Shown: positions 58,126 through 61,020 of the stretch, piece after piece
How positions within the stretch are numbered: position 1 is the first letter of the stretch
Layout of the letters: each line of letters starts with the position of its first letter
Source: Halorubrum californiense DSM 19288
GTDB lineage: Archaea; Halobacteriota; Halobacteria; Halobacteriales; Haloferacaceae
NCBI RefSeq assembly: GCF_000336875.1
Contig: NZ_AOJK01000041.1
Coordinates: 71,920-135,919, forward strand
DNA: 64,000 bases
Direction: 5' to 3'
The notes under the pieces: generated by a model
Told to the model about the DNA's origin: nothing
What the model saw: the letters and a program-made list of their open reading frames with translations, nothing else
Databases searched by the model: none
Position numbers and translations under genes: made by a program

Positions 58126-59571
58126 TCACGGTCGCGGCTCGTAGAACTCCCGAAGCGGTCGGCCGAACGCGGGCGCGAGCGTCGCGACCGCCTCCCCGAC
58201 CAACACGTCGCGGTCGGCGAACGCCGGCTCCACCTGCGCGCCGAGCGCGACGTCGCTCGCGGCGTCGCTCTCCAGGTATTCCCGGACCGTGGCAAACTCC
58301 CGCTCCCGCTCGACGACGTACCGATTCTCGTCGATGAAGGGGCCGTAGGTGTCCGGGTCGACATCGTCGACGTACGACTCGTAGAAGCTCGCGGCGTGCT
58401 TCCGGACCGCGACCGGCGGCCCCTCGTGGCGCTCGACCGCCGGCCGCTCGGTCACCTCCAGTTCCGCGTACAGCGCGGCTCGGATCGCCCCGCCGGACAG
58501 GTTGCGGTCGGCCGTTGCCCCTCCGTCGCTCGTCCCGGCGTTGCTCGTCCCGACGGCGCCCGCCGCTCCCGTCGCGTTCGTCATCGCTCGCGCCCGGAGA
58601 ACGTCGAAGCCGTGATCGTTCAGCCCGCCGACGATCCCGTCAAGCGAGCGGCGGAGCTGCGGCCACAGCTGGTCGTCGACCACCTCGGGCGCGTCGAAGA
58701 CGACCGCGACCGGCGTCGTCCCCCGCCGGTCGAGGTGGGCGCGGACCTCTTTGGAGTCCAACGGCTCCGGCTCGGCCGGCTCGAAGAGCGCCTCGCTCGG
58801 GGCCGCGAGCAGCTCTCGCGCGTAGTGTTGGAACCGCGCGAGGTTCGCCGCCGACAGCACCGCGGCGACGTTCCGCGTCGGGTCCGTGGGGTCGACCACG
58901 ACGAGCGGGTCCTCGAACGTGCGCTCGGCGTGCCCCTCGGGGTCGAACTCCACCGGCGGGTGCCAGCTCCGCGCCGACTCGACGAGCGGGACGAACCCGC
59001 CCAGTTCCAGCACGAGCAGCTCCGTGAGATACCCCGAAAACCCCTCCGTGCGGAGGTCGCTCCCGTACGCGCCGATACCCTTCAGGAACGCCTTCGCCAG
59101 CACCACGTCCCCCGCGAGGCCGTCGTCGAGCCGCGCCGAGAGGTACGCGTCGTGGAACGGGGTCCGGTCGACCGCGGAGACCAGTTCGGCCGCCGTCTCC
59201 ACGTCGTGACAGGGGACTAGGTCGACGTCGAACCCCTCGTAGCTCCCCTTCACGTACGGGTGTTCGGCGTACTCCTCGTGACCCTCGGGGAGGACAGCGT
59301 GGCCGACCGCGAGGCCGTACTCCTCCAGTTCCGCGCGGTCGAGGTCCGCGTCGAACCGGACGAAGAGATCGATGTCGCGGTCGCCCGCGACCCACGTGCC
59401 GCGCGCCGTCGACCCGACTTGGACCACGTCGGCGTCGACGGGGAGGTCGGCGATGGCCTCGCGGGTCCGCTCGGTCAGCGTCGCAGCCGCCTCGCGCAGC
59501 CGTTCACGCTCCTCCGGCTCCGGGAGGACGCGCTCGCGGACCCGCGACAGCACCGCCTCCAACTCGTCCAT
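58126..59571 (-). CDS. cca: CCA-adding enzyme (archaeal class I tRNA nucleotidyltransferase)
   Basis: A 481-residue enzyme that adds CCA to tRNA 3' ends without a template, which this genome needs because its tRNA genes do not encode CCA. The class I nucleotidyltransferase motif is VQVGSTARGTWVAGDRDIDLFV, with the metal aspartates in DRDIDLFVRF. DVDLVPCHDV, FLKGIGAYGSDLRTEGFSGYL and VVDPTDPTRNVAAVL follow. The C-terminal tail with DNRYVVEREREFATV-like ENRYVVERER closes the arch. The acidic insert with Gly/Ala/Thr at about 340-370 is variable. The start at 59571 is the family start. Confidence 0.93.
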   Translation of the reverse strand: MDELEAVLSRVRERVLPEPEERERLREAAATLTERTREAIADLPVDADVVQVGSTARGTWVAGDRDIDLFVRFDADLDRAELEEYGLAVGHAVLPEGHEEYAEHPYVKGSYEGFDVDLVPCHDVETAAELVSAVDRTPFHDAYLSARLDDGLAGDVVLAKAFLKGIGAYGSDLRTEGFSGYLTELLVLELGGFVPLVESARSWHPPVEFDPEGHAERTFEDPLVVVDPTDPTRNVAAVLSAANLARFQHYARELLAAPSEALFEPAEPEPLDSKEVRAHLDRRGTTPVAVVFDAPEVVDDQLWPQLRRSLDGIVGGLNDHGFDVLRARAMTNATGAAGAVGTSNAGTSDGGATADRNLSGGAIRAALYAELEVTERPAVERHEGPPVAVRKHAASFYESYVDDVDPDTYGPFIDENRYVVEREREFATVREYLESDAASDVALGAQVEPAFADRDVLVGEAVATLAPAFGRPLREFYEPRP

Positions 59572-59721: not shown

Positions 59722-59830
59722 GCCGAAGTAGCTCAGTTGGTAGAGCGCCTCGCTGTTACGACGTTCGGCGGAACTTCCCCCGACCGTCACAGTCACGAGG
59801 CGGTCCCAGGTTCGAGTCCTGGCTTCGGCG
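59722..59830 (+). tRNA. tRNA-Asn (GTT) with a 36-nt canonical intron
   Basis: Exons 59722-59758 and 59795-59830 make a 73-nt tRNA. The acceptor is GCCGAAG/CTTCGGC with G73, and the anticodon stem is CCTCG/CGAGG. The loop CTGTTA-A after splicing has anticodon GTT at 59755-59757. The intron 59759-59794 sits between positions 37 and 38. A bulge-helix-bulge is formed by CTGT (59753-59756) pairing with ACAG (59789-59792). The 3-nt bulges are TAC and TCA, and an outer helix pairs GACG with CGTC. This is the exact substrate of the archaeal splicing endonuclease. CCA is not encoded. Confidence 0.92.
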
Positions 59831-59891
59831 TCCTTCCGTACCGCTCCGCTCGTAGCCACATCTCTTGTCCGATACCGGCACAGACGGTCGT

Positions 59892-60356
59892 ATGTCGCTC
59901 CTCGAACGATACGACCGCCTCAAAGAACCACAGAAGCGCGGCCAAGCGACGGAAGCGATCGTCACGGCGGAACTGATCGCTCGCGACGTTTCCGTACTTA
60001 CGCCGGCGTACGACAACGAACCATACGATCTCGTCATCAGGATCGCCGACGAATTCTATCGGTTACAGGTCAAGACGGCGTACGACGGAAAAAACGACGG
60101 TGCGGTGGAGTTCCGAACTCGGAGCGTCCGAACGAAGAGCGACGGATACGAACGGGAGGGGTACGGCGGAAAGATCGACTACTTCGCGGTTTTGAACGTC
60201 CGAACGGAGGATGTGTATCTCGTCTCGATCGACGACGCGGGGTCGGCGGCGACCACGATCCGGTACGAACCCGCCGCGAACAACAACCGATCGAACGTCA
60301 ACTGGCACGCGGAGTACCGGCTCGATACGGTTCTCGACGGGCTTCGGTCGGGGTAA
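59892..60356 (+). CDS. PD-(D/E)XK nuclease-like protein (PDDEXK_5, group I intron endonuclease family)
   Basis: A 154-residue protein. The fold of the family is seen in GQATEAIVTAELIARDVSV, then EPYDLVIRIADEFYRLQVKT, giving the catalytic D and the Q/E-x-K pair (PYD, LQVKT). KIDYFAVLNVRTEDVYLV matches the remainder. Members are known as group I intron-encoded homing endonucleases and as stand-alone proteins. Its GC content and codon use are lower than the neighbours and it lies between two tRNA genes, so it was probably acquired recently. The start at MSLLERYDRL follows from the conserved frame. Whether it cuts DNA is unknown. Confidence 0.78.
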   Translation: MSLLERYDRLKEPQKRGQATEAIVTAELIARDVSVLTPAYDNEPYDLVIRIADEFYRLQVKTAYDGKNDGAVEFRTRSVRTKSDGYEREGYGGKIDYFAVLNVRTEDVYLVSIDDAGSAATTIRYEPAANNNRSNVNWHAEYRLDTVLDGLRSG

Positions 60357-60398
60357 TGCGGTAACCTAAAGAACGTCCCTCGTGTATCCAATATCGTC

Positions 60399-60474
60399 GG
60401 GCCTTTAGCTTAGTCTGGCTCAAAGCCCTCCGCTCATAACGGAGTGATCGCCGGTTCAAATCCGGCAAGGCCCA
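60399..60474 (+). tRNA. tRNA with CAT anticodon, probably tRNA-Ile2 (agmatidine-modified)
   Basis: A 76-nt tRNA. The acceptor stem GGGCCTT pairs with AAGGCCC and A73 is the discriminator. The anticodon loop CTCATAA has CAT at 60435-60437. The anticodon stem is CTCCG/CGGAG and the T arm GCCGG/CCGGC. It has no intron. The GGGCC acceptor and D-arm GCTTAGTCTGGCT differ from the elongator tRNA-Met of haloarchaea, which carries an intron, and from the initiator. This favours tRNA-Ile2, whose C34 is modified to agmatidine. That assignment is inference. Confidence 0.8.
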
Positions 60475-60561: not shown

Positions 60562-61020
60562 CTACTCCTGTCGAAGCGTCACGTCGGTCGCGGTCTCGTT
60601 CGCGAGGTTGTCGCTCACCGGGCACCGCTCCTCGACGGCGGCGGTGAACTCGGCGAGCGCCTCGTCGTCGACGTCGCCCGCGAAGTCGACGTCGACGGAC
60701 GCCTCCACGCCTTGGTAGCCGGCGCGTGGGTCCCCGTCGCGGCCGAGGTGCTTCCGCGGGTTGAACTCGCCGGCGACCTCGACTGCGACGCCCTCGACGT
60801 CGAGGTCGAAATCGGGCGCGGTCGCGCGGACCGTCGCGTTGAGACAGCCGCTCCAAGCGGCGAGCAGGTACTCGACCGGCATCGCGCCCGCGTCGTCGCC
60901 GCCCATCCCCTCGGGGTCGTCCATCACCAGTTCGTGGCCTCTGGCTTCGGCGACGAACTTCGACTCGCTGTCGCTCTCGCCGCTGACCGCCATCCGCTGC
61001 GTCGCGTTGGCTTCGCTCAT
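60562..61020 (-). CDS. OsmC family peroxiredoxin-like protein
   Basis: A 152-residue thiol peroxidase of the OsmC/Ohr superfamily, which reduces organic hydroperoxides. The two catalytic cysteines are in AAWSGCLNATVRATA and EERCPVSDNLAN. HELVMDDPEGMGGDDAGAMP and EYLLAAW precede the first. It is OsmC-like and not the Ohr type. The start at MSEANATQRM is the only ATG in the first 80 bases. It is convergent with tRNA-Ile2. The thiol donor is unknown in haloarchaea. Confidence 0.88.
   Translation of the reverse strand: MSEANATQRMAVSGESDSESKFVAEARGHELVMDDPEGMGGDDAGAMPVEYLLAAWSGCLNATVRATAPDFDLDVEGVAVEVAGEFNPRKHLGRDGDPRAGYQGVEASVDVDFAGDVDDEALAEFTAAVEERCPVSDNLANETATDVTLRQE

Follow-up and report, generated by a model that had tools for sequence, protein, structure and literature searches.

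I-Ssp6803I is a PD-(D/E)XK enzyme whose own gene sits in a group I intron, that of the Synechocystis tRNA-fMet gene (passages of PMC1995217), and its target is described, in the title of a reference, as the anticodon region. A different arrangement is known from cyanophages, where the free-standing nuclease F-CphI, whose gene lies beside a psbA gene with an intron, cleaves psbA alleles that lack it and is kept by the intron from cutting its own host gene (passages of PMC6083498 and PMC3984707); the first of these papers uses the term 'collaborative homing'. In archaea, protein-spliced rRNA introns are mobilised by a homing nuclease, and the same source, as far as its passages go, gives tRNA introns a length of 11-175 nt (PMC2738675). 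Unlike the rRNA introns, introns of this size are too short to hold a nuclease gene. The mechanism of tRNA-intron transposition in the Thermoproteales was called unknown in a passage of a 2014 review (PMC4090602). A search for literature on archaeal tRNA introns with homing endonucleases, at the level of titles, the beginnings of abstracts and passages, with subscription papers largely outside its scope, found no link between a nuclease and such an intron.

The window analysed here, a stretch of 64,000 nucleotides from Halorubrum californiense DSM 19288, carries a gene for a putative nuclease of the I-Ssp6803I family just after a tRNA-Asn gene with a protein-spliced intron (Table 1). The parts are those of the F-CphI/psbA system, namely a nuclease, an adjacent gene and an optional intron, and here too the free-standing nuclease gene adjoins the intron-bearing gene. 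However, the cyanophage nuclease is unrelated (Endo VII motif), its intron is of group I and the interrupted gene encodes a phage protein, whereas the putative haloarchaeal system involves an archaeal chromosome, tRNA genes of five isotypes and an intron of the bulge-helix-bulge (BHB) type. The gene of I-Ssp6803I lies within a self-splicing group I intron; the haloarchaeal gene, in contrast, stands by itself behind the tRNA, and the intron close to it is short, protein-spliced at a BHB and without an ORF. The archaeal rRNA-intron nucleases are also unlike the tRNA-linked gene in being encoded within the intron and in having rRNA genes as their home. With the Thermoproteales the likeness is the gain of introns by archaeal tRNA genes, but there similar introns are found across different isodecoders while the haloarchaeal intron stays at one isotype. 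As joint transfer of intron and gene was not detected (r 0.007, see below), the pair is proposed to work like collaborative homing and not to be an instance of it.

The tRNA-Asn locus

Table 1. Features of the tRNA-Asn locus and its surroundings, in coordinates of the window
Feature	Coordinates	Strand	Evidence
tRNA-Asn(GTT) 5' exon, positions 1-37	59722..59758	+	Rfam RF00005 match 59722-59830; boundary from intron-less relatives
BHB-type intron, 36 nt, between positions 37 and 38	59759..59794	+	absent in intron-less relatives; pre-tRNA fold
tRNA-Asn 3' exon	59795..59830	+	Rfam RF00005 match; comparison with intron-less relatives
Putative free-standing PD-(D/E)XK (PDDEXK_5) nuclease gene, 154 aa, ATG start	59892..60356	+	PF11645, Foldseek, PADLOC, dN/dS
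tRNA-Met(CAT), without intron, bounds the insertion site	60399..60474	+	ARAGORN
CCA-adding enzyme gene, conserved upstream neighbour, linked control	58126..59571	-	PF09249, PF21133, PF01909
OsmC-like gene, downstream neighbour	60562..61020	-	PF02566

Though missed by a plain ARAGORN run without the intron option, the tRNA-Asn over its whole length scores 61.1 bits against the Rfam model. In its folded precursor a 7-bp anticodon stem is followed by a 3-nt bulge, then by a 4-bp helix, a second 3-nt bulge and an intron helix, which is a canonical BHB; the intron is almost invariant, and so the assignment comes from fold and position and not from covariation. A preliminary description of the locus, made from the sequence of this one stretch, had taken the intron to be of the protein-spliced type, with which the fold agrees. 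Its coordinates, its 61-nt gap between the end of the tRNA and the start of the nuclease gene and the arrangement as a whole are confirmed, and the arrangement of intron and gene is found again, beyond what chance would give, in 20 of the 50 genus genomes and in other genera.

The nuclease gene has, as had also been remarked, a lower GC content than its surroundings (0.600 with a GC3 of 0.766, against 0.723 and 0.927 for the neighbouring CCA-adding enzyme gene), and its dN/dS is approximately 0.12. The low GC3 taken with this ratio makes the gene foreign-looking yet under selection. No duplicated tRNA 3' end, which would mark an integration site, had been seen in the preliminary description, and a renewed search at the window's tRNA-Asn locus gave only weak, chance-like repeats; the tRNA-Asn loci of the genus likewise lack a tRNA 3'-end repeat (0/50). 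The uninterrupted tRNA-Asn site, taken as a 21-mer with up to 3 mismatches, has no occurrence anywhere in the window's own genome, which is consistent with the intron blocking the predicted target. The anticodon arm is near-palindromic, with 16 of 23 positions symmetric, as other anticodon arms are, and the intron lies in its middle.

The protein encoded matches the PDDEXK_5 profile PF11645 with an E-value of 1.7e-30 and 106.3 bits, the cut-off being 26.1. With its AF2 model (pLDDT 87.6), the top four Foldseek matches are all to 2OST, the structure of I-Ssp6803I (E 4e-10, TM 0.73, with 18% identity in the structure alignment), followed by SPARDA nucleases and Hjc resolvases at E-values of approximately 1e-3. 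2OST is also the sole PDB match at the sequence level (E 0.0029), and the single PADLOC model to match is 'homing endonuclease' (HEase; E 5e-5). The protein carries E21, D46, Q59 and K61, the last three of which align with 2OST; among 38 homologues D46 is invariant, and Q59 and K61 are each present in at least 90%. Its likeness to I-Ssp6803I thus extends over the fold, an aligned YD...QxK motif and a tRNA gene as home. Profile, modelled fold and catalytic D and QxK residues all place the predicted nuclease in the PDDEXK_5 / I-Ssp6803I family, as the preliminary description had it.

Gene and intron within the genus

Fifty-two genomes of the Halorubrum group were searched and 50 of them gave a tRNA-Asn match, G070 and G071 being without one. 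Two genes were called intact by hand, one (G002) despite a missing ATG at the expected place and the other (G011) despite a change of W138 to G. The intron is present in 23 of the 50 loci. In the other 27 the exons are joined directly, in 26 of them with no other change in the exons and in one (G030) with a single exon substitution. An intact nuclease gene accompanies 20 of the 23 intron-bearing alleles, as against 3 of the 27 intron-less alleles (Fisher p 6.6e-8). Copies decayed by a stop, a frameshift or truncation, or left as a remnant, number five in the genus and all are at intron-less loci; gene-bearing loci with the intron then have 20 intact and 0 decayed copies, and those without it 3 and 5 (p 5.7e-4). 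Within the genus the catalytic QxK is mutated in G022.

The insertion site itself is constant. tRNA-Met is downstream of tRNA-Asn in 49 of 50 genomes, at a distance of 68-153 nt where the gene leaves no trace and of approximately 560-600 nt where it is full-length, and the CCA gene is approximately 90-220 nt upstream in all 50 loci. The OsmC gene is near tRNA-Asn in 8 of the 50, which is too few for it to serve as a second flank control, and it was dropped as such. An optional gene and an optional intron therefore occur together at a fixed site, with exceptions: intact genes are beside intron-less tRNA-Asn in G021, G024 and G064, and 3 of the 23 intron-bearing loci are without the nuclease gene. 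The suggestion in the preliminary description of a link between the nuclease and intron-less alleles gains support from this distribution, which is not independent.

Species tree, gene tree and transfer

The species tree was derived from RNA polymerase genes (7,533 nucleotide columns, 51 genomes). There is no RNA polymerase match in G013, and so the tests on this tree have n=49 and the Mantel tests include 19 of the 20 genomes with intron and gene. In L160 and L161 (from G022 and G061) the RNA polymerase subunit is matched as two pieces that overlap, possibly through a frameshift or an assembly error. On the species tree the intron changes at least 15 times and the intact gene 13 times. Among 13 independent pairs that differ in the intron, the gene agrees in 10.5 on average and opposes in 0.1 (median sign p 0.002, or 0.016 when decayed copies are scored as present), and the association of gene and intron survives the species-tree test. 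On the tree of the CCA gene the intron changes 16 times, and there the pair test taken by itself is weak (5.2 agree, 0.1 oppose, median p 0.06) since the supported pairs number just 8. Distances in the CCA gene, about 150 nt upstream, track species (r 0.85), and the flips of intron and gene are therefore local.

All three species clades put to an AU test on the nuclease gene are rejected (p 4.6e-6, 4e-91 and 0.008), which indicates that the gene crosses horizontally between species groups. The intron sequence follows species (r 0.57, p 2e-4) and CCA-gene distances. With species controlled for, a partial Mantel test of intron against gene distances gives r 0.007 (p 0.46), in 19 genomes and with its power limited by the 36-nt length of the intron; as intron sequence does not track the gene, co-transfer of the two is not seen. 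G061 and G029, for example, have introns one base apart and nuclease genes that differ at 40% of sites. Taken together the two sets of histories are those of a gene that is gained and lost horizontally and persists where the intron is present. The preliminary description had considered a tRNA-associated mobile cassette: movement between species groups stands, but with histories that differ in this way a single cassette, in which gene and intron are one inseparable unit, is rejected as the main account.

Other genera and other isotypes

The preliminary description dealt with one locus, which is a member of a family associated with no fewer than five tRNA isotypes. Across the order (392 genomes, those without an intron pattern being taken as intron-less) a homologue of the nuclease is found in 189 genomes. 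From outside the genus 52 loci (L166-L217) were chosen in order of E-value, with several skipped, and adjacency was counted by hand from coordinates; the numbers of gene-bearing genomes given for taxa outside the genus are minimum values. A tRNA gene lies within 1.3 kb in 47 of the 52 loci and within 0.9 kb in 46, nearly always upstream and on the same strand, where the chance expectation is approximately 2% (45 tRNAs in 3.68 Mb). The five loci without a tRNA neighbour are L183, which is at a contig edge, L187, L205, L206 and L212. The neighbour is tRNA-Asn with an intron in 11 cases and without one in 10, tRNA-Lys with an intron in 11, tRNA-Arg with an intron in 2, tRNA-Asp in 11 and tRNA-Pro in 2. 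A tree of 70 proteins, of which 65 have a tRNA beside them, requires 4 changes of neighbour isotype, which is the minimum for 5 isotypes, and the lowest number in 100 shuffles is 26. Each nuclease clade goes with one isotype (Asn, Lys, Arg, Asp or Pro).

The tRNA-Lys intron pattern is present in 28 of the 392 genomes and the nuclease gene is adjacent in at least 11 of the 28. All 11 Lys-type nuclease loci examined have the intron, and among the loci examined, which cover part of the 364 genomes without the Lys-intron pattern, there is no gene beside an intron-less tRNA-Lys. A further genus, with 15 genomes, repeats the pattern: where tRNA-Lys has the intron the gene adjoins it in 4 of 6 genomes, and where the intron is absent in 0 of 9 (p 0.011). 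At tRNA-Asn outside the genus the gene accompanies at least 11 of 46 intron-bearing and at least 10 of 314 intron-less alleles (p 6e-6), and up to 35 of the 46 introns are without it.

Loss of catalytic residues in homologues, a point that the preliminary description had singled out for checking, follows the same division. Outside the genus QxK is intact in 11 of 11 tRNA-Asn loci with the intron versus 5 of 10 without (p 0.012), the mutated copies being those of L178, L182, L184, L185 and L192. It is mutated solely where the tRNA-Asn is intron-less or where no tRNA was found, save in one tRNA-Lys copy, L196, in which the K is changed. Two genes beside intron-bearing tRNA-Asn, in L180 and L190, have QxK intact and other damage. 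A seemingly active gene is beside intron-less tRNA-Asn in L167, L168, L174, L179 and L181; the anticodon stems of the first three differ, which might or might not be relevant. The Asp and Pro nuclease clades flank intron-less tRNAs, and so the intron is not the sole way to live with such a nuclease.

Five loci of the Halorubrum group (L021, L022, L027, L028 and L029) have a second, longer PDDEXK_5 protein, with open frames of approximately 390-450 aa, located some 300 nt after a tRNA-Pro(TGG) that is without an intron; between the two there is, by eye, an apparent short antisense gene. An Asp-type nuclease gene is between two identical tRNA-Asp copies in L023 (1204-2108), L209, L210, L216 and L217, and L023 also has a tRNA-Asp 3' fragment. 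A copy of a tRNA 3' end is approximately 80-200 nt downstream of the tRNA in L167, L168, L171, L173, L176, L189, L193, L194 and others, and such downstream copies are also present in the gene-less genomes G279, G344 and G372. Two tandem intron-bearing tRNA-Asn genes with different introns occur at G279:C28:38115-38434 and G401:C1:1348983-1349304, with no nuclease gene found there. The downstream tRNA-Met also has an intron in L172, L167, L168 and L184, and in L172 the nuclease gene is between two intron-bearing tRNAs (1313-1415 and 1989-2092).

Proposed mechanism and alternatives

The gene probably encodes a free-standing, homing-type nuclease that targets the anticodon-arm DNA of intron-less tRNA-Asn and is tolerated where an intron masks the site. 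The predicted target would be the arm in the uninterrupted gene. By splitting it, the 36-nt intron would shield the host's only tRNA-Asn gene, and with the host gene shielded an intact nuclease gene would be expected to persist only, or nearly only, in intron-bearing alleles. An incoming intron-less allele would be cut and then repaired from the copy that has both intron and gene, and such cutting and repair would maintain the pair and could spread it. Haloarchaea have multiple chromosome copies per cell, and many copies would make the conversion efficient. Tolerance would be confined to cases where the intron, decay of the nuclease or a changed target stops self-cutting. The intact or seemingly active genes beside intron-less tRNA-Asn, in the three genus genomes and the five outside loci named above, count against this reading, as do the introns without a gene, the intron sequences that do not track the gene and the intron-less tRNAs beside the Asp and Pro clades.

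Gene and intron are approximately 100 bp apart, in one short tract, and the nuclease gene is clearly exchanged between species groups; as haloarchaea recombine freely, the two might be co-exchanged by homologous recombination with no functional tie. Linkage of this kind is unlikely to be the whole explanation, as it predicts neither decay solely where the intron is absent nor a recurrence of the pairing at tRNA-Lys and in further genera, and the discordance of intron haplotype and gene type in G061 and G029 is contrary to it. Somewhat less likely again is that elements which integrate at tRNA genes left the gene behind or carry it, with the intron a host defence against integration and not a partner of the nuclease. 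That tRNA genes are common integration sites and that a protective role has been suggested for introns (passages of PMC3293823) would fit, as would the extra tRNA 3'-end copies at 22 of the 49 tested loci that are not genus tRNA-Asn loci and the ability of the nuclease gene to sit between two tRNA-Asp copies. At the genus tRNA-Asn loci, however, the 3'-end repeat is absent throughout and the insert consists of one small gene whose empty site is clean, while one clade per isotype together with purifying selection fits an active, target-bound gene.

Carriage by viruses or plasmids was also considered and rejected: viral contigs gave 3 pattern matches, none of them confirmed as a relative, and there is no relative of the nuclease in the plasmids. 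A phage collection yielded seven records: five belong to haloarchaeal viruses, at 34% identity across 71% of the query, and the remaining two to one Enterococcus phage (29% identity). It is very improbable that the nuclease has another role, of the Holliday-junction or defence type, and uses the tRNA transcript or promoter region by chance. SPARDA nucleases and Hjc resolvases are indeed its next fold matches, but they are far weaker than I-Ssp6803I (E approximately 1e-3 versus 4e-10), the lone PADLOC match is to a homing endonuclease, and patchy presence with an isotype-specific site is ill-suited to a housekeeping role.

Implications for archaeal tRNA introns

Why archaeal tRNA genes acquire introns and retain them has long been asked, and a nuclease tied to the intron-less allele would offer one answer that can be put to a concrete and cheap test. 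Such a nuclease would also carry collaborative homing beyond the group I introns of phages, to introns of archaea that are spliced by proteins. A more general proposal, made tentatively and with somewhat less than even confidence, is that a family of free-standing anticodon-arm nucleases, with one clade for each isotype, maintains the position 37/38 introns of haloarchaeal tRNA genes and restores them locally, with intron and nuclease forming an addiction pair. Loss of the intron under an active nuclease would expose the only tRNA-Asn (or tRNA-Lys, or tRNA-Arg) gene to cutting, and in cells with many chromosome copies each intron-less one would be converted back. If true, the existence of tRNA introns in archaea would have a selfish reason. 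The nuclease clades that go with Asn, Lys, Arg, Asp and Pro genes would also be a natural set of enzymes with one scaffold and different DNA specificities.
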